This document shows, one piece after another, positions 8,828-36,746 of a stretch of 46,834 nucleotides of DNA (its first letter is position 1; each line of letters starts with the position of its first letter). The DNA lies in contig SHXT01000009.1 of NCBI GenBank assembly GCA_009693175.1, positions 1 through 46,834 of the forward strand, given 5' to 3'. Below the pieces are notes generated by a model. The model had not been told where the DNA came from. It was given only the letters and a program-made list of their open reading frames with translations, and did not search any database. The translations under genes were made by a program, and so were the position numbers. This stretch comes from Candidatus Methylopumilus sp. (lineage in GTDB: Bacteria; Pseudomonadota; Gammaproteobacteria; Burkholderiales; Methylophilaceae).

Positions 8828-9418
8828 TTATAAACTACCTTTAGTTGATGGAGTAATGCCTGACAAATTAGGATCAATATCAATCGCCATTCTTAAAGCT
8901 CTTCCAAATGCTTTAAAAATCGTTTCTGCTTGATGGTGAGAATTATCGCCTTTAAGATTATCAATATGCATAGTGATATTGGCATGATTTACAAACCCTT
9001 GGAAAAATTCATGTACTAAATCTACATCAAATTCTCCAATTGCCGCCCTTTTAAACTCAACATCAAACTCAAGTCCAGGTCTACCCGAAATATCAAGCAC
9101 TACTCTGGATAAGGCTTCATCTAGGGGTACATAAGCATGACCGTATCTTTTAATACCTTTTTTATCGCCAATTGCTTTAGCAAAAGCTTGGCCCATGACA
9201 ATTCCAACATCTTCCACAGTGTGATGTGCGTCAATATGTAAATCACCTTTAGCCTCAACAACAAGGTCTAACATGCCATGTCGTGCAATTTGATCTAACA
9301 TGTGATCAAGAAAACCGATACCAGTATTTAATTTAGCTGTCCCTTTACCATCCAAATCGATACTCACTTCAATTTGGGTTTCAAGTGTTTTTCTTGAAAT
9401 GCTTCCTGATCTTTTCAT
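8828..9418 (-). CDS. hisB: Imidazoleglycerol-phosphate dehydratase
   Basis: HisB dehydrates imidazole glycerol phosphate, step 6 of the pathway. The 196-residue protein is the dehydratase alone, with no histidinol-phosphatase domain, as is usual in Betaproteobacteria; the phosphatase must be encoded elsewhere. Manganese-binding motifs [11 protein letters not shown] (about residue 70) and [12 protein letters not shown] (about 168) are both present. A 64-base gap separates it from hisC, the largest within the histidine run; I see no convincing promoter there. Confidence 0.95.
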
Positions 9419-19104: not shown

Positions 19105-20238
19105 TTATAATTGACCATATGAATGAAGTCCTGATAAAAACATATTTACGCCCAAAAAAGCAAAAGTAGTAACTACAAGCCCAATCAATGCCCACCATGC
19201 CAATATAGGTCCTCTAAGTCCCTTAACGATCCGATAATGTAGCCATGCTGCATAATTTAACCATACAATAAGCGCCCAAGTTTCTTTGGGATCCCATGAC
19301 CAATAACCGCCCCAAGCTTCAGCTGCCCATATCGCACCTAATATTGTCGCAATGGTAAAAAAGATAAATCCAATCGCAATCGATTTATAAATAAGATCTT
19401 CAAGAATGGTTAGTTTGGGCAAGTAAGAAGTTAATATTTTTTTACTTGAAAGTAAGTAAGCTGAAGATACCATTGCTGCTAGAGAAAAAGAACCATAACC
19501 AATAAAATTAGCAGGCACATGAATCTTCATCCAATAAGACTGCAAGGCTGGCACTAAAGGCTGAACAGCATCCGCATGCCGATCAAATGTATACCATAAG
19601 ATAAATCCAACAGCTGCATTAATGACAATTAATACAAAAGCACCTAATTTCTTTGTACTAAATCGCTCTTCATAAAATAAATAAAGAAGTGACGTAATTA
19701 AACAAAATAAAATAAATACTTCATACAAATTGCTAATTGGAATATGTCCGATATCAAGGCCTATTAAATAAGATTCATACCATCTCACAAGTAACCCAAT
19801 AAATCCGAAAATCACTGCGGTTGATGTGAAAGAAGATGCAATATCATCTAAAAGATTATTTCTTGTAAGTAACCCTAACCAATAGAGCAAAAGTGCTAAC
19901 ACAAAAAAAACATTCATCCACATAACAGCCGACTGGCTTGATATAAGGTATTTTAATAAAAATACACTTTCATTGTTTATAAGCGTTCCAGCATAAAGCT
20001 GAATAGCGAAAAAGCTTATTACAAAGACAGTTATAATAATTTTCTTGAAATGATTCCAATTCCAACCGAGCCAAGTAAAGAAACCAACACTACCCAATAA
20101 AATTATCTCTTCATAGATATCCATGTAAATATGAAATGTTTTGAGTGCATATAAAGCACTTCCTAACAAAAGAGAAAGGTATATAAAATTAAAAGCTTGA
20201 AATGATGCTTTTATAGATTTAAATAATTTAGTTAACAT
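19105..20238 (-). CDS. ccsB: Cytochrome c biogenesis protein CcsB (CcsA/heme-handling family)
   Basis: This is the heme-handling half of System II cytochrome c maturation and presents heme at the periplasmic face. The tryptophan-rich motif WGGYWSWDPKETW near the C-terminus is the WWD heme-binding signature. Multiple membrane helices flank it. The frame is open to a GTG at 20277 that overlaps resB by 29 bases. I prefer the ATG at 20236-20238 (MLTKLFKSIKASFQAFN), giving 377 residues and a 10-base gap to resB. Confidence 0.9.
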   Translation of the reverse strand: MLTKLFKSIKASFQAFNFIYLSLLLGSALYALKTFHIYMDIYEEIILLGSVGFFTWLGWNWNHFKKIIITVFVISFFAIQLYAGTLINNESVFLLKYLISSQSAVMWMNVFFVLALLLYWLGLLTRNNLLDDIASSFTSTAVIFGFIGLLVRWYESYLIGLDIGHIPISNLYEVFILFCLITSLLYLFYEERFSTKKLGAFVLIVINAAVGFILWYTFDRHADAVQPLVPALQSYWMKIHVPANFIGYGSFSLAAMVSSAYLLSSKKILTSYLPKLTILEDLIYKSIAIGFIFFTIATILGAIWAAEAWGGYWSWDPKETWALIVWLNYAAWLHYRIVKGLRGPILAWWALIGLVVTTFAFLGVNMFLSGLHSYGQL

Positions 20239-20248
20239 AAGTCGCCCA

Positions 20249-22186
20249 TCATTGAATAATTTTACTAATTTCCCCACTCACTTTTTTATACTCGCGCTCA
20301 AAATCTAAATTTTTTCGATTAGAGCTGAATGCAAGTATAACTCTGCCGGATGATTTAATAAGAAGCCATAACTTTCTTTCATGTAAATAAATCATTGAAA
20401 AAATACCAAGCACTAAACTTAAAGATCCTAGGTAGACCCAAAATTGTCCTGGAGATTTAGTAATTTGAAGTCCACTCGCTTCTTTCTGTTCGTAATCTGT
20501 AAGCTCAAAAAAATAAGGGGAGCCATAAAAAAACATATCACTATATGCATTTAGTGCATCTTGAATAAACATAACACTTGATTGATCAAATTTTATATTT
20601 GAAACTTTTAATTGTTTTTTATAAAGCTCAACAGATGCAATATCTATTATTTTTAAATAAGTTTGTATAGCTTTTTCTTTATCGCTAGCTGGAATATTTT
20701 TGTCAATACTTTCAGCAATATTTGAAAAGCCTCCTTGTGCAAATAAAGTCATTAATTTATTTATACTATTTTCAAACGATTCTTTCATGACACCTTCTTG
20801 GTCATGATCGATAGATTGATTTGCCATATCTTTAGAGATCGTCTCAATTAATGCTTTATTTTGAAGGGCGCTTTTAAACACCATAAACCCTTCAATCGAA
20901 CCTTGATTGTCTGCAGGTATTTTTAAATATCTAAATTCTTCCTGTGGGGTTTCTCTCATGCCACTAACAAAAAAAGAGCGATCATCAATAGGCATAGCAT
21001 ATTGATATGAAATAAATTCACGCGCTTGTCCTGAATTATTTCTAATTTTATAAGTGACACTAGGGCCTACATTTCGTGGTTTTTCTTTTTGTCCCTCTTT
21101 AAGATGTAAAATATTAAATTTTCTAAAATCATTAAATTCATAAGTTAGTTGATCTTTATCTAATTTAACTTTTTCAAAAATTTTACCCTCTATTTTCTGG
21201 GATGCTTTCGAAGCTAATAAGCTTATTAATTCAATATTAAGTTTTGTGCCCCCATCCTGAAAATCAGATTGATAAATAGTGATACCTTTGTATGTGAAAG
21301 GATGGTTAACACTAATTGTCGTTTTGATATCTTGAGACAAATCTGTGTCTGAAATTACTAAATCGCTTTCAAATGATTTTGGCATCCCTGTTGAGTAATG
21401 AAGAATTCTAAAATCTGTTAGAGCAACTTTAAAAGGTAATTCTTGAACAAGATATCCGTCTTTCATTCTCACAAAAGCCACGTTATCAGATGCACCTTCA
21501 GCAAGCGTCATATTCGCTCTAAAGGAAGCATTGTTAATATGAAGCCTACTCACCTCAGATACTTTTGAGGCAGGAATATCTAAGGTTTCTATTTTTTTGT
21601 ACCCTAGCATCTCTTGAGCTTTAAAAACTAAATTACCATCTAATAAACCACCCAAGCAAATCACAACCACGCCTAAATGAGTCAAGATGTATCCCAAGCG
21701 TTGATAATTTCCTTTTTTGGCAACAATTAAAATATCGCCACTCTCTTTTAACTTTTCCTTGGTTTTATATTTTTCATGCTTTAAATACTGAATAATTCTA
21801 GAGAGGTTTATTTTTCTCTTATTTTGTAGAGTAAGGTGATGTGTAAATGCTTTAAGTGATTTTTCTTCTAAGGTATCTTTAAATAATAAAAAATCTTTAA
21901 GCATGGTCGGGGTATTTTTGGTAATACAGAGTGTTGTTGATATAACTAAAAAAAGTAGAATGATTAGAAACCAGACGCTATGATAAACATCATAAAGACC
22001 AATCTTCTCAAAATATCCAAACCAAAACTGACCAAATTTAATAATGTAGTTTTCATAAGGTTCATTCTGCTTAAGAATAGTTCCTATAATTGATGCTATT
22101 CCTAGGAATACAAGCATACATACTGCAAAGCTCATTGAGATTAACAATTGATTTACTTTTCTGAGATTAAATGTTATAGATTTCAA
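20249..22186 (-). CDS. resB: Cytochrome c biogenesis protein ResB
   Basis: ResB (Ccs1) works with CcsA/CcsB to attach heme to apocytochromes c in the periplasm. The 645-residue protein has three N-terminal hydrophobic helices (about residues 15-35, 66-86 and 164-182), a large periplasmic domain, and a last helix near residue 590 ([20 protein letters not shown]). Length and layout fit betaproteobacterial ResB. Targets encoded nearby include cytochromes c4 and c1. Confidence 0.92.
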
Positions 22187-22880: not shown

Positions 22881-22988
22881 TGCTTAAAGCTCCATATATA
22901 AAGTATGTATCATGCGTTCCCATTTTATCTAAAATCCCATTCTCGTGATAGCATTTTGATTGGATTGAACAGGTTGAAGGTAAAGCGC

Positions 22989-23627
22989 ATGGCTATTTTT
23001 AAAAACGCATCATATTATATATCTGCTCATCATTTAACTGATCTACCTGCTCCTGTTGGAATTGAAATCGCCTTTGCAGGAAGATCAAATGCAGGGAAAT
23101 CAAGTGTTATTAATACGCTTGCTAATCACAATCGCCTCGCGTTTGTTAGTAAACAACCGGGTCGAACACAGCTCATCAATTTTTTTTCGCTAGGACATGA
23201 CCGTTTCTTAGTTGATTTACCTGGCTATGGTTACGCTAAAGTACCTCATGCAATTAAAGATCACTGGCAAAAAATTTTAGCGACTTATCTGTCTGAACGG
23301 TCTTGTCTGTTTGGTCTTGTTTTAGTCATGGATATCAGACACCCACTCACACCTCTTGATCAGCAAATGCTGAATTGGTTTTCGTTAAATAAAAAACCTA
23401 TCCATATTTTACTGACTAAAGCTGACAAACTCTCTCGTGAAGCCTCACATAAGACACTTTATAGCGTTCAAAAAGAAATTAATGAGCGATGGGGAAGCGC
23501 TCTTGGAATCGAGTGTACTGTACAACTTTTTTCTAGCTTAAAAAAACAAGGTACTGAAGAGGCTGAAGTTATTATTGGTAAATGGTTAAACACGCCTATA
23601 GATCATATCCCAAACCTTATATCCTAA
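22989..23627 (+). CDS. engB: Ribosome biogenesis GTPase YihA/EngB
   Basis: EngB is a small GTPase needed for large ribosomal subunit assembly. The product has G1 GRSNAGKSS, G3 DLPGYG, and G4 TKADKL. The frame is open upstream to 22905, but those 28 residues are unlike the family. I chose the ATG at 22989 (MAIFKNASYYISAHH, 212 residues), which has a GAAGG Shine-Dalgarno about 9 bases upstream. Its 3' end overlaps convergent trmB by 42 bases. Confidence 0.94.
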   Translation: MAIFKNASYYISAHHLTDLPAPVGIEIAFAGRSNAGKSSVINTLANHNRLAFVSKQPGRTQLINFFSLGHDRFLVDLPGYGYAKVPHAIKDHWQKILATYLSERSCLFGLVLVMDIRHPLTPLDQQMLNWFSLNKKPIHILLTKADKLSREASHKTLYSVQKEINERWGSALGIECTVQLFSSLKKQGTEEAEVIIGKWLNTPIDHIPNLIS

Positions 23628-24284: not shown

Positions 24285-25435
24285 AATCTTGTTATTTTAT
24301 TGTTATGCTTTAACCCTATAAAATCTATGTCAATATTTTTTTCAATCACCATTACTTTAAATAAATCACCCATTTCTGAAGGGGATAACAATTTTTGAAC
24401 TTCGGATACAGATTTCATATATAAAGATGTATTTTCTATATTAATATTCTCAAGCAGTCGTAATATGCCGCAATTAATTAGAAAATTTGCTTGCGATATG
24501 AATCCTTTGCTATGTAATCCTAATTCAGAAGCTTTTTTAGCAACATAACTAAAATTTACATGACTTGTAATGTCTTGAATACCTAAATAAATAAGTGGAT
24601 TGTCATGAGCATAATGCTTGAAATGACACATTAAAGTGCCTTGAGATCGCTGCTCATGGAAATATTCTGTATGATTAAATCCATAGTCGATAATTAATAT
24701 AACTCCCTTTACTAAACAGTGATCAATTTTTTTAAGCCAACTTTTAATATAGATTGAATACTCTGTAAGATAAAATCTTGGAAGTTTTTCTAAATCAATT
24801 TCATCTTGAATAGATAAATCTTCTATTAACTTATCTTTCCATACAAAATTATCTTTTTCTACACTGACACCATGTTGATAATAAACACTCGCTGACTTTT
24901 TAATTAAATTTATAGGGAATGCATCAAGCAATTCGTTGCAAAAAATAATGCCTTCATATTTTTCTGGCAGCTCTTGAATCCATTCTATTTTATTAAATAA
25001 ATCTACTGACAAATGTGCCATCAAAAGATCATGCTGTCTTTTTTTTAATGTAGGGCTTATTTCAAGAATAAAATAGCGCTCAATTTCTTCTTTGTCTTTT
25101 ATTAAAGATTGAATTGTCTCAAGCGCAAAAATTCCTGAGCCAGCTCCGATTTCAAGTATATTTTTTTTAACTGACTGAAAAATTTCTTTAAACTGTATGC
25201 ATATCGCTTTGGAAAAAAGGGTTGATATTTCTGGGGCTGTTACAAAATCACCTTTTTCACCAAGCTTACTTAAGCTGCCTGTGTAATATCCAAATTCAGG
25301 ATCATAAAGTGCTAGCTCCATGAAGCGATTAAAACTAATCCATCCTTTTTCTGACTTAATGCATTGAATGATCTTCGTTTTTAAACTATAACTTAATTGA
25401 GCTTCTTTTTCTGAGGGCTTGGGCATTGATGGCAT
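24281..25435 (-). CDS. SAM-dependent methyltransferase, MidA/NDUFAF7 family
   Basis: This class I methyltransferase family includes NDUFAF7, which methylates an arginine in a mitochondrial complex I subunit; the bacterial target is less certain. The protein (about 384 residues) has MELALYDPEFGYYTG near the N-terminus and the SAM motif ILEIGAGSGIFALE. The frame opens at 25465, but starting MPSMPKPSEKEAQ at 25435, or the next ATG at 25426, fits better. It is divergent from folM across a very short gap and coupled to trmB. Confidence 0.87.
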   Translation of the reverse strand: MPSMPKPSEKEAQLSYSLKTKIIQCIKSEKGWISFNRFMELALYDPEFGYYTGSLSKLGEKGDFVTAPEISTLFSKAICIQFKEIFQSVKKNILEIGAGSGIFALETIQSLIKDKEEIERYFILEISPTLKKRQHDLLMAHLSVDLFNKIEWIQELPEKYEGIIFCNELLDAFPINLIKKSASVYYQHGVSVEKDNFVWKDKLIEDLSIQDEIDLEKLPRFYLTEYSIYIKSWLKKIDHCLVKGVILIIDYGFNHTEYFHEQRSQGTLMCHFKHYAHDNPLIYLGIQDITSHVNFSYVAKKASELGLHSKGFISQANFLINCGILRLLENINIENTSLYMKSVSEVQKLLSPSEMGDLFKVMVIEKNIDIDFIGLKHNNKITRL

Positions 25436-25446
25436 ATGTATTAGAT

Positions 25447-25452
25447 TATAAT
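25447..25452 (+). promoter_or_regulatory. Possible -10 box for folM-ttcA
   Basis: A perfect TATAAT lies 27 bases before the folM ATG in the divergent midA/folM gap. TTGATG upstream is only 15 bases away and lies inside midA, so the -35 assignment is poor. The hexamer is seen; the function is a guess from position. Confidence 0.3.
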
Positions 25453-25479
25453 AGAGACAAATCATTTATACATAAACAC

Positions 25480-26226
25480 ATGAAATCTAATAGAAAAATT
25501 GCTTTAGTCACTGGCGGTGCTAAAAGAATCGGGCAGGCAATCTGTAAGCGTCTTCATGAAGCAGGTATAGACCTTATGATTCATTATCGTCATTCAGCAA
25601 GCGAAGCAAAAGAGCTTCAAAAATCGCTTAATCAAATTCGTAAAAATTCAGCAAGTATTATTCAAGCAGATCTTCTTAATACAAATGTATTGCCAAGCCT
25701 CATACAAGAAACAATCAATGTATATGGCAAACTCGATATCTTAATTAATAATGCCTCTAGTTATTATCCAACTGAAATTGGAAAAATGAATGAAAAAAAC
25801 TGGAATGATCTTATTGGTAGTAATTTAAAAGCGCCTTTATTTTTATCTCAACTTGCCGCAGATGAGCTTATCAAAACCAAGGGATGTATTATTAATATTA
25901 CTGACACCCACATTGATAAGCCCAAAAAAAACTACATTATTTATAGCGTTGCTAAATCAGGCTTAACCACTTTAACAAAGTCATTAGCTCAGGAATTAAG
26001 CCCTGATGTTAGAGTTAATGCTGTTGCTCCAGGTCCAGTTCAATGGCCAGAAGACAATGAAGAGTTCAATGATATTTATAAACAAAGGGTTATTTCTCAA
26101 ACCTTACTAAAAAAAATGGGCACGCCTGAAGATGTAGCAATGGCTGTTGAATTTTTAGTCTTATATGCCCCATTTATTACGGGACACATTTTAGCTGTTG
26201 ATGGCGGAAGATCTATTGCATTATGA
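25480..26226 (+). CDS. folM: Pteridine reductase (SDR family, FolM/PTR1-like)
   Basis: Bacterial pteridine reductases reduce dihydropterins or dihydromonapterin with NADPH. The 248-residue short-chain dehydrogenase has the nucleotide loop TGGAKRIG near the start, NNAS at about residue 90, and the catalytic Y-S-V-A-K. The frame is open upstream to 25426, but family similarity begins at [13 protein letters not shown], so I use the ATG at 25480. It overlaps ttcA by 4 bases. Substrate is inferred from family and from the conserved pairing with ttcA. Confidence 0.87.
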
Positions 26227-27062
26227 CACCACATATACCTACTGAAGCTACAAATAACTTTCTCAAATTACGAAATAAACTTATAGGTTTAACTGGTAAA
26301 GCTATCACTGATTTTAATATGATCGAAAACAATGATCGCGTTCTTGTATGCATGAGCGGTGGGAAAGATTCATATTCGCTACTTATGTTTTTGCTAGCAC
26401 TCAAAGAAAGAGCGCCTATTCATTTTGATATTGTTGCAATGAATCTAGATCAAAAACAGCCTGGATTCCCTGCGGATATATTGCCTAATTATCTAAAAGG
26501 GTTGGGCGTGGAACATTTAATAGTAACTGAAGATACTTATTCAATCGTAAAAGAAAAAATACCAGATGGTAAAACTACTTGTTCTTTATGTTCACGCTTA
26601 AGACGCGGAATAATATACAGAACAGCAAAGGAACTTAATATCAATAAAATTGCTTTGGGTCATCATCGTGACGATATTGTTGAAACGCTTTTCCTAAATA
26701 TGTTTTTTGGTTCAAAACTCAAAGCCATGCCGCCCAAGCTTATTTCCAATGACCAAAAAAATATTGTCATTAGGCCTTTGTCCTATTGCTCAGAAAAAGA
26801 AATCTTAAGCTATGCGTCGCGTATGAACTTTCCAATTATTCCTTGTAATTTATGTGGTTCGCAAGAGAATCTTCAAAGAAAAAAAATAAAAGAAATGTTA
26901 ATGCAATGGGAAAAAGACCAACCTGGTCGAATAAATAATATCTATCAAGCCATATCAAATGTTGAGCCCTCTCATTTAGCAGATCGAAGCCTATATGACT
27001 TTGAAAGACTGGCTCAATTAAATCAAAAAGAAAGTGAAGATATTCTTTTTACAGAAGATTAA
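26223..27062 (+). CDS. ttcA: tRNA 2-thiocytidine(32) synthetase TtcA
   Basis: TtcA thiolates cytidine 32 in certain tRNAs using ATP and a labile 4Fe-4S cluster. The 279-residue protein has the PP-loop [10 protein letters not shown] at about residues 45-54, the first Cys pair in [11 protein letters not shown] near residue 120, and a third cysteine in [13 protein letters not shown] near residue 210. It begins inside the folM stop (ATGA), so translation is likely coupled. A 177-base gap to topA follows, with no clear terminator. Confidence 0.95.
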
Positions 27063-33177: not shown

Positions 33178-34272
33178 ATGTTATTTAAAACCTCATTAAA
33201 AAAAGAATTACTTATTAATTCAATCACATCCCTATTAATTTTAATAGGTATTGTAATGGCGCAAAGAATTTCAATTTATTTGAGGTTCGCTTCAAAAGGT
33301 ATTATACCTAATGATTCTATCAAAACGATCTTAGGTCTGAACATCATCAAATACTCTCCCCTTTTATTATCGCTCTCTATTTTTCTGGCTATTTTACTTA
33401 CACTTTCAAGATGGTATAGGGATCATGAAATGATTATTTGGCTAAGCTCGGGCATAAGTCTTACTAAAATTGTAAAATCTATCACGTCATTTGCGATACC
33501 TGCCGTAGCCATGGTTGCATTTTTATCTCTTTTCTTAAATCCATGGGCCGTAAGAACAGCCGACGAATACAAAAGTAACTTAAAGACTCGCGATGAATTA
33601 TCAACTCTAACACCAGGGACATTTAAAGAATCAAAAAGTTCTGATCGTATATTTTTTATTGAAAGTTTTGATGAATTGGGTAATGTAGTAAAAAATATAT
33701 TTGTACAAACAAAACAACACAATAAATTGGGTGTTGTTATAGCTAATAATGGGCATCGAGAAATATCAAATAAAGGTGATAGCTACGTTATTATGCAAAA
33801 AGGTCGAAGATATGAAGGTGTGCCTTATACCAAAGAATTTTCTACAACTGAATTTGATCAATACGGTGTTCTTATTGCCCAACAAGCTAAAGAACCTTAC
33901 ACCCCAAGCATAGACAGTAAAAATTTAAGCAGTCTTATTCAATCTAATGAATTAAATGATCGGCTAGAACTTCAATGGCGCCTATCATCCCCAATTGCAT
34001 GCATACTTTTAGTATTTTTAGCCGTTCCTTTAAGTTTTACAAATCCTAGAGCGGGTCGATCACTTAATATTATTTTTGCGGTACTTATATTTATAATTTA
34101 CAACAATCTGCTTGCCATTATGAATACTTTTATTACCTTAAAGAAAATCGATATTGCAATTGGATTTTGGCCTATACATCTTATCTTTTTATTAATAGCG
34201 ATTTACCTTACTTACAAACGTTCTATGAATCAGCCTATTTTATCTTTACCATTAAAATTTTCTAAAAAATGA
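33178..34272 (+). CDS. lptF: LPS export ABC transporter permease LptF
   Basis: LptF with LptG forms the inner-membrane permease of the Lpt system, which extracts lipopolysaccharide and passes it to LptC. The 364-residue protein has the YjgP/YjgQ layout: three N-terminal membrane helices, a periplasmic beta-jellyroll domain (about residues 135-265), then three C-terminal helices with LVFLAVPLSFTNPRAGRSLN. It overlaps lptG by 4 bases. An ATG 4 bases upstream is out of frame. Confidence 0.94.
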   Translation: MLFKTSLKKELLINSITSLLILIGIVMAQRISIYLRFASKGIIPNDSIKTILGLNIIKYSPLLLSLSIFLAILLTLSRWYRDHEMIIWLSSGISLTKIVKSITSFAIPAVAMVAFLSLFLNPWAVRTADEYKSNLKTRDELSTLTPGTFKESKSSDRIFFIESFDELGNVVKNIFVQTKQHNKLGVVIANNGHREISNKGDSYVIMQKGRRYEGVPYTKEFSTTEFDQYGVLIAQQAKEPYTPSIDSKNLSSLIQSNELNDRLELQWRLSSPIACILLVFLAVPLSFTNPRAGRSLNIIFAVLIFIIYNNLLAIMNTFITLKKIDIAIGFWPIHLIFLLIAIYLTYKRSMNQPILSLPLKFSKK

Positions 34273-35339
34273 AAATTCTTGGCCGATATCTTAATTTAGA
34301 GGTCTTTACTCCAATTGTATTGATCATGATTGGGCTGATCGGGATATTTACATTTTTCGATTTCATTCAGGAAATGCCCGACTTAGGTAGAGGTAGTTAT
34401 AATTTACTAACCATATTTAGTTATGTAATTTTAAGTGTCCCAGGGCACGTTTATGAAATTGTACCGATAGCCGTACTTATAGGATCTATGTACGCTGTAG
34501 GTCAGCTTTCAGAAAATTCTGAATTTATTGTTATTCGTACAAGTGGTCTCTCAATTCAAAAAATAGCACTAACCCTTACATTAACAGGTATATTTTTTAC
34601 ATTATTTACTTTTTTTATTGGTGATCTTGTTATGCCGATTACTGAAAAAAAAGCGCAAGAATTAAAAATTACTGCTAAAAATTCTATCGTTGCGCAAGAA
34701 TTTAAATCTGGTCTTTGGATTAAAGATAGTAACAGTTTTGTAAATGTTGAGCATGTATTACCTGATTCTAGTCTGGAAAATATTCACATTTATGAGTTTG
34801 ATAAAAATTTTCATTTAAGAACAATTACCAATGCTAAAAAAGGTACTTTTAAAAATACGGAATGGAAACTTAATGACATTAAGCAAACCATTTTTAATGA
34901 AGATAAAGTTTTCACAAATTCCCTAAAAAGTGCAAATTGGAAATCTCTTATTAAACCAGAAATGATGAATGTACTTCTTGCCTCTCCTGAAAAAATGTCT
35001 TCACTGAATCTTATACATTTCATTCGTTATTTAAAAACAAATAAGCAAAAAGTTGTCCGCTATGAAGTTGCTTTATGGGAAAAGTTAATCTATCCACTTG
35101 CCTCTATTGTGATGATTTTATTCGCTGTACCATTTGGTTGTTTTCAAGAGCGCTCTGGCGAGAAAAATGTAAAAATTTTTATAGGTATTTTAATTGGTAT
35201 TTTTTACCAGATTATGAACTCATCTTTTAGATATATTGGTCTTTTAAATGATTGGCAACCACTCTTATGCGCAGCTGTACCGACTCTTATCTTTTTGATA
35301 ATTGCCGTGCTGATGATTTATAAAACTGAATATCACTAA
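34269..35339 (+). CDS. lptG: LPS export ABC transporter permease LptG
   Basis: LptG is the partner permease of LptF. The 356-residue protein has the same fold: helices at about residues 12-32, 45-70 and 98-120, a periplasmic jellyroll domain, and C-terminal helices with MILFAVPFGCFQERSGEKN. It is translationally coupled to lptF. The ATPase LptB and LptA/LptC are not in the window. The RDD gene downstream is convergent. Confidence 0.94.
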   Translation: MKILGRYLNLEVFTPIVLIMIGLIGIFTFFDFIQEMPDLGRGSYNLLTIFSYVILSVPGHVYEIVPIAVLIGSMYAVGQLSENSEFIVIRTSGLSIQKIALTLTLTGIFFTLFTFFIGDLVMPITEKKAQELKITAKNSIVAQEFKSGLWIKDSNSFVNVEHVLPDSSLENIHIYEFDKNFHLRTITNAKKGTFKNTEWKLNDIKQTIFNEDKVFTNSLKSANWKSLIKPEMMNVLLASPEKMSSLNLIHFIRYLKTNKQKVVRYEVALWEKLIYPLASIVMILFAVPFGCFQERSGEKNVKIFIGILIGIFYQIMNSSFRYIGLLNDWQPLLCAAVPTLIFLIIAVLMIYKTEYH

Positions 35340-35404
35340 AATAATTTTTTAGTAAGACATCGTGAAGATACTGATTTTTTTGATTTAAAAAAGCCAAAAA
35401 AAAG

Positions 35405-35731
35405 TTACCCCCTTAAGCCTAATCCAATAGTCGCAAAAATATAACGTAGCCACGCTTTACTTAGAGTTAGATTTCTTTTATTACTAAGCAATTTTATTTT
35501 CCATGCCTTCATCGCTAATGTTTGTCCTGTTACTGTCCAGCAGTATGTAAAATAAAAACCTGAGATTAACCACAAATATATTTGGAATAATAACCTTTGA
35601 TATGTGCCAAATAGTCCATCAAAAATTATAATAAAGATAAATCCTGACACCATCCATATTGGAATGAGTGCAAATAATTCATAAATTAAAGATCCAAGAA
35701 TTTGAATGAAAATTGATCGACTTATTTTCAT
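35405..35731 (-). CDS. RDD-family membrane protein, C-terminus lost to a frameshift
   Basis: RDD proteins are small three-helix membrane proteins of mostly unknown function, some linked to ion or solute stress. The 108 residues include helices at about 9-37 and 46-64, and the conserved WTVTGQTLAMKAWKIKLL. The frame stops at 35405-35407 just after a run of five G (minus strand; 35408-35412). Dropping one G restores the family's C-terminus, including QYLHDVLLKN, and extends the gene to 35287 (about 147 residues, a normal length). Either a pseudogene, a recoded gene or a sequence error. It is 13 bases after the antiporter gene. Confidence 0.85.
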   Translation of the reverse strand: MKISRSIFIQILGSLIYELFALIPIWMVSGFIFIIIFDGLFGTYQRLLFQIYLWLISGFYFTYCWTVTGQTLAMKAWKIKLLSNKRNLTLSKAWLRYIFATIGLGLRG

Positions 35732-35744
35732 AAAGAAAACCTAA

Positions 35745-36746
35745 TTATCGAAGTATAAAGAATAAATATGTAAAATAAAGTATGCCATTAATACCTAAGT
35801 GCCATACTTTTATATTGGATTTATAAATAAGAGCTCTAATCCATATAGAAGAAATAAGCGTTATAAAAATACATAAAAAAACTTCTATTCTTGGCTCCCA
35901 TGGGGTTAAAAGAATGCCTATCGCAGGAAGAAGTGTCCCTTGAAAGACCATTGCACCAGTGATATTTCCAAAAGCGAGCGTATCTTTACCTTTGCGTATC
36001 CAAAAAATACTATTCACTTTTTCAGGTAATTCAGTCGCTATAGGTATAATTAACATAGACAAAATAAGTGCAGAAATTCCTAAAATAGATGAAGCCTCTT
36101 CAATACCATAAATAAAACCTTTTGCCCCAAATATTAAAAGACCTAAGCCAACAAGTAATTGAATAGAAATAATTAAATAATTATTTGGCAATCCAATTCT
36201 TTCCATAAACATGGGATTTGATGCTTCAGTAGCATGTCCTTCTTTAACCAGTTTTTTTGATGCTCGAATAGTCATCAAAATATAAATAAAATATGAAAGA
36301 ACCATTAAAAAAGCTATCAATCCTTTTGCAAGTTGTAATGTGTGAGGAATAAATAAAGCAATTCCGGCAAAAATGAATGAAAATATAAAAAAATCTAAAT
36401 CTCTAATCAATCCAGTTTTCTCAGGTTTTAAATGCCCCCCAAATCCTCTATGCCCAATTACAGAAATAGCCATAACAAACATTGTTAAAGTAGAAAGCAT
36501 GAGAGGGGCTCCTAAAATAGCACCTACTCCAATTTGATGATTAGTTTCACTATCCCCATGAGATGAAAAAAGTGCTAATAACGGAACTAATGTTTCCGGA
36601 AGAGCTGTTCCAACGGCAGCAAAAATAGATCCAGTCACGCCCTCTGATATTTTTAATTTTTCACCTAAATGCTCAAGCGCATTGGTAAATATCTCAGCTG
36701 AGATTAAAATAACAAGTAACATGAAGCTTAACTTTATAAAAATCAT
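35745..36746 (-). CDS. Sodium/calcium exchanger-family cation antiporter
   Basis: A CaCA-superfamily antiporter, probably exchanging Ca2+ or another cation for H+ or Na+ across the inner membrane. The 333-residue protein has about ten helices in two inverted repeats. The alpha-1 motif reads GSIFAAVGTALPETLVPLLA near residue 41, with the ion-binding Glu; the alpha-2 motif reads MLIIPIATELPEKVNS near residue 235. It is divergent from ampD and leads into the RDD gene. The exact ion cannot be read from sequence. Confidence 0.85.
   Translation of the reverse strand: MIFIKLSFMLLVILISAEIFTNALEHLGEKLKISEGVTGSIFAAVGTALPETLVPLLALFSSHGDSETNHQIGVGAILGAPLMLSTLTMFVMAISVIGHRGFGGHLKPEKTGLIRDLDFFIFSFIFAGIALFIPHTLQLAKGLIAFLMVLSYFIYILMTIRASKKLVKEGHATEASNPMFMERIGLPNNYLIISIQLLVGLGLLIFGAKGFIYGIEEASSILGISALILSMLIIPIATELPEKVNSIFWIRKGKDTLAFGNITGAMVFQGTLLPAIGILLTPWEPRIEVFLCIFITLISSIWIRALIYKSNIKVWHLGINGILYFTYLFFILR

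Follow-up and report, generated by a model that had tools for sequence, protein, structure and literature searches.

Recent lineage-specific truncation, or a local error, in an RDD-family gene of 'Candidatus Methylopumilus' whose C-terminal tail lies out of frame

RDD proteins, a family named for conserved Arg, Asp and Asp residues, have been linked to the antiport of cations and protons in a halophile and, in B. subtilis, to the inhibition of SppA (PMC7568657). Given these differing roles, the function inferred for the RDD protein of this study is limited to that of a small membrane protein. AT-rich small genomes are described to contain both frameshift pseudogenes and broken genes that can be rescued by slippage, according to the accessible part of that report (PMC1088944). 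Similar to those genes, the RDD gene considered here appears to be broken beside homopolymers and its downstream codons are still recognizable. The genomes of 'Ca. Methylopumilus' themselves are given as 1.26–1.36 Mb in size with a G+C content of 35.3–37.7% (PMC6794327). Among the matches listed for the RDD family and its proteins, Methylopumilus genomes and bacterial slippage, nothing was found on the RDD gene of this locus in the portions of the texts available.

The window, i.e., the whole stretch of 46,834 nucleotides analyzed in this study, has a G+C content of 0.34 and belongs to a draft genome of 1.17 Mb in 35 contigs that is 97% complete. This genome contains a single RDD match and no second copy. 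Of 60 other genomes searched, 55 matched the RDD body, none of them with a stop inside the match. All 15 other genomes of the genus that were examined possess an RDD match, and in each the reading frame continues without a break past the LHD motif as far as the stop. Fourteen of these loci are complete, while L029 is cut by a contig edge. Counted from the start position used in the window, 13 of the complete frames comprise 148 residues and the remaining one, L006, is two residues longer at its end. From RY to LHD, the genus relatives align without gaps or variation in length. The identities of L032–L035, which come from records labeled Nitrosomonadales, Methylophilales or Methylophilaceae, were 42–49%.

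The gene neighborhood is also shared. The Na/Ca-exchanger-type gene lies upstream of the RDD gene in 14 of the 15 genus loci, one of them with a partial match, and the remaining locus starts at a contig edge. The lptG gene is convergent with the RDD gene in all 15; the two share 53 nt in 14 loci and 59 nt in L006. With the tail frame stopping at 35287 and lptG at 35339, the window has the same 53-nt overlap as those 14 relatives. Thus, the ancestral layout is in place and the frame alone is broken. Similar to the PF06271 orthologs of the genus in body, tail and neighbors, the RDD gene of the window differs from them in that the frame, single and about 148 residues long in the orthologs, is interrupted here at residue 108 and that Gln stands in place of a conserved Arg. 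As a separate observation, the tail-to-tail arrangement at 35287–35339 is an antisense coding overlap that is conserved in the genus.

Table 1. Positions of the RDD-family gene, its out-of-frame tail and the adjacent genes in the window.
Feature	Position	Strand	Remarks
lptG-type LPS-export permease gene	34269–35339	+	PF03739, E 2.1e-79; convergent, 53-nt overlap with RDD tail
Out-of-frame RDD tail, NQKNQYLHDVLLKN...QLSKR and stop	35287–35385	minus	Homologous to the last 32 residues of relatives
Stretch of frame loss	35385–35422	minus	Codon comparison, frame-aware alignment and placement scan
RDD-family gene body	35731–35405	minus	108-aa ORF: helices 1 and 2 whole, about half of helix 3, then TAA
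Na/Ca-exchanger-type gene	35745–36746	minus	PF01699, E 2.6e-28; intact, 13 nt upstream of RDD

On the minus strand, the RDD ORF ends with LGLRG, which is followed by TAA at 35407–35405, and a run of five G lies at 35412–35408 (CCCCC from 35408 on the plus strand). The tail is read in another frame as NQKNQYLHDVLLKNYFSDIQFYKSSARQLSKR, with a stop at 35289–35287. The original prediction had located frame, stop, run and tail correctly. The RDD body alone matched Pfam PF06271 with 26.1 bits (cut-off, 24.1 bits) over positions 16–102 of the 137-position profile. It is not a full-length PF06271 frame, as the C-terminal end of the domain is missing from the same frame; the RDD proteins of L010 and L003 scored 43.6 and 40.7 bits, respectively, and reached position 136. 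In these two proteins helix 3 spans approximately residues 98–116 by hydropathy, whereas in L012 and L014 it falls below the threshold for calling. The ORF of the window stops at residue 108, so the third helix, which had been thought to be deleted, is cut midway and not entirely lost. The tail shares 14–20 of its 32 residues with the 15 genus relatives, and the profile alignment described below bears out the proposal of an RDD protein whose C-terminal part persists recognizably in another frame. That this out-of-frame tail is still recognizable also supports the view that the event is recent or an error.

The number of frame changes was assessed by frame-aware alignment of the window DNA with a profile built from 14 members of the genus, of which the final 92 columns were used. 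With 0, 1, 2 and 3 frame changes, the alignment scored 142.6, 277.1, 292.9 and 293.4 half-bits, respectively. Because the score rose from 142.6 to 277.1 half-bits with the first change, the homology of body and tail in different frames is far beyond chance. The single skipped G that had been proposed is therefore upheld as a change of frame but not as the whole story, given that a second change gains another 15.8 half-bits. When single random lesions were put into the relatives, the corresponding gain was at most 2.62 and 0 of 350 reached 15.8. That first simulation had no W-to-L substitution and was rerun with it: single lesions combined with W-to-L and 0 to 15 further substitutions gained at most 12.8, and 0 of 1680 reached 15.8. 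When 14 distant members of the family were aligned in the same way, a second change gained between 3.6 and 107.9; these values were omitted from the counts and are unusable as a control, because the model cannot place codon gaps.

Relative to the family, a single frame change costs one residue and the W of the VTFFW region. Since the relatives are gapless between RY and LHD, one change, which yields 147 residues, misses the family pattern, and two changes reproduce it. The originally expected length near 147 residues thus does not agree with the 148 residues of 13 of the 14 complete relatives. Judged from these alignments, two small frame changes about 20–35 nt apart are most likely, with VTFFW being read in a third frame between them. 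The W is found in 29 of 33 homologs, L032–L035 being those without it. Leaving out the W column reduces what the second change adds from 15.8 to 7.0 half-bits; for this reason, one 2-nt loss plus a W-to-L substitution would be a possible, if disfavoured, substitute for two changes. The first change falls within 35422–35408, which includes the five-G run, and the second, if present, at about 35393–35386. Placing the first at 35419, 35422 or 35413 scored 292.9, 291.4 and 290.9 half-bits, respectively, all within 2 of each other, with the second then at 35393–35387. Given these nearly equal placements, the five-G run is a candidate site of the first frame change and not an established one.

The frame breaks within the codons of the third helix, the tail behind the break is recognizable, and the 15 relatives are continuous. 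We consider that this is probably a genuine, recent and lineage-specific disruption of a single-copy RDD gene that is otherwise whole in the genus. Small base losses in or beside short runs of G and T would have shifted the last quarter of the gene into another frame. What the cell makes would then be no more than a product of 108 residues that retains two whole helices and roughly half of the third but lacks the LHD tail. This product would probably be inactive or degraded, which would make the RDD gene an early pseudogene; like that of a pseudogene, its frame is interrupted where all 15 genus relatives are continuous. Two putative naming residues of the family are affected, the N-terminal Arg10 having been replaced by Gln and the Asp of the LHD motif lying in another frame. 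Against a real truncation counts the statement, in the part of the source available, that streamlined genomes hold few pseudogenes (PMC6794327).

Signs of relaxed constraint were looked for in both parts of the gene. The identity of the window to the 14 complete relatives was 0.558 in the tail and 0.676 in the body, and the identities among the relatives were 0.787 and 0.784, respectively. The excess loss of identity in the tail had a one-sided permutation p of 0.040 and was larger than in each of the 14 relatives taken as controls. By part, p was 0.041 for the 15 codons free of lptG and 0.161 for the 17 overlapped codons. Changes at invariant sites did not differ significantly between tail (2/13) and body (2/45; p = 0.21). 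All 14 complete relatives keep Arg10, which is Gln here, and 6 of the 49 ORF positions that are invariant in them have changed. Of 43 genes compared, the RDD body showed the greatest divergence in raw identity ratio. With 10 of 60 invariant sites changed, the RDD gene ranked second of the 43, and 12th when this number was divided by the count for genome G007. As the RDD gene evolves fast in the relatives too, no strong decay of the body is shown. The drift of the tail would thus be a weak sign of decay, and the lesion, if real, would be recent, with decay suggested but not proven by these comparisons.

A local sequencing or assembly error, by which the contig would misstate homopolymers at a single spot of poor coverage and the living cell would have a continuous gene, seems less likely than a genuine disruption, of which it is the most serious competitor. 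In its favour, short G and T runs offer places for the frame changes, the tail has remained easy to recognize, and the genome is a 35-contig draft. However, the extra drift of the tail and the lost Arg10 are not homopolymer errors, and the window has 18 runs of at least five G or C with no other gene showing an internal frame break. The draft was compared more widely by searching 277 kb of it, about a quarter of the genome, with G005 (460 kb). There, 142 of 487 G005 ORFs were testable, i.e., matched with 50% identity and 60% coverage, limits beyond which broken genes are missed; a gene was counted as broken if a frame change or stop lay more than 25 residues from an end. The RDD gene was the sole internally broken one among the 142 in this quarter-genome sample. 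Thus, the draft is not generally error-ridden, and a genome-wide error-prone draft is not supported, with the sample speaking to the general error rate and not to a single bad spot at the RDD gene.

Comparisons restricted to the window gave a similar picture. The stretches of seven relatives each had 45–54 ORFs with matches in the window, of which 3–5 were flagged, the RDD gene every time. The other flags fell on eight places, for each of which one alignment was inspected. In all eight the stop was near one or the other end of the gene, the furthest in lying about 21 codons from the end (at 26223–27059), which again speaks against an error-prone sequence, as these eight genes differ from the relatives near an end only. 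For the window ORFs at 25426–26226 and 19105–20277, which were flagged against several relatives, the stop lay no more than 7 columns from the start in one relative each. In the reverse comparison of ORFs of the window genome with G005, 5 of 140 were flagged: L056 13186–13827 (at column 55 of 212) and L069 9945–10208 for stops in the G005 match, two ORFs of L060 for a change of frame close to the C terminus, and 22905–23627 of the window for a difference in the start region. Overall, the case is an ordinary one, either a lineage-specific truncation of recent date or an error at this locus, and the likeliest reading is a common kind of decayed gene rather than a special two-protein mechanism. 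Its significance is small. If real, the disruption means the loss, in a streamlined genome, of a membrane protein that is otherwise kept genus-wide; if an error, it is a warning against inferring recoding from one draft genome.

It is quite improbable that the truncated 108-residue RDD protein is still made and used. The ORF does retain the two helices and the GQTLAMKAWKIK segment, keeps 43 of the 49 invariant positions unchanged and remains above the Pfam cut-off. However, the ORF breaks off partway through a helix without the LHD tail that all 15 relatives keep, and no equally short RDD frame was found among the other 55 matching genomes, except for one cut by a contig edge.

Still less credit can be given to programmed recoding, transcriptional slippage or phase variation at the runs, by which a full-length protein would be produced or switched on. 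For each frame change there is a possible site at a homopolymer with a TAA right behind it, where a one-base slip would continue the family reading, and slippage can rescue broken genes, as mentioned above. However, two successive slips would most likely be needed, and the runs here (G5, T8 and T6) are shorter than the nine A/T given for a large part of genomes (PMC1088944), from whose genes the window thus differs in both run length and, probably, the number of shifts. The predicted RNA fold does not stand out (z = -1.58) and is matched by 10 of 200 shuffles, no Rfam match was found in 34900–36000, and the arrangement occurs in none of the 15 genus relatives. The locus thus does not combine the one slippery site, stimulating structure and conservation of a programmed frameshift, and the +1 recoding or phase-variation site of the original prediction finds no support in this fold or in the continuous frames of the relatives. 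A full-length RDD protein read from three frames via two slips at short G and T runs, each before UAA, by which a streamlined bacterium would tune or switch a membrane protein, is scarcely credible.

Some other genes of the window also differ from those of the relatives. The PP-loop ATPase-family gene at 26223–27059 on the plus strand (PF01171), which we take to be TtcA-like, stops about 21 codons short of where its relatives end, and the codons past its stop still resemble their tail, another C-terminal trimming in this lineage. At 22905–23627 on the plus strand, an ORF that is presumably GTPase-like has its upstream part in another frame in G005 and G009; the listed start is probably too early, with the internal ATG of MAIF as the apparent common start. 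The glycine cleavage H-protein gene (PF01597; 30843–31223, plus strand) has changes at 15 of 81 invariant positions, the largest share of the 43 genes. The imidazoleglycerol-phosphate dehydratase gene (PF00475) at 8828–9418 on the minus strand has changes at 19 of 181 invariant positions versus 3 of 184 in G007, which is the largest such ratio of the 43 genes.
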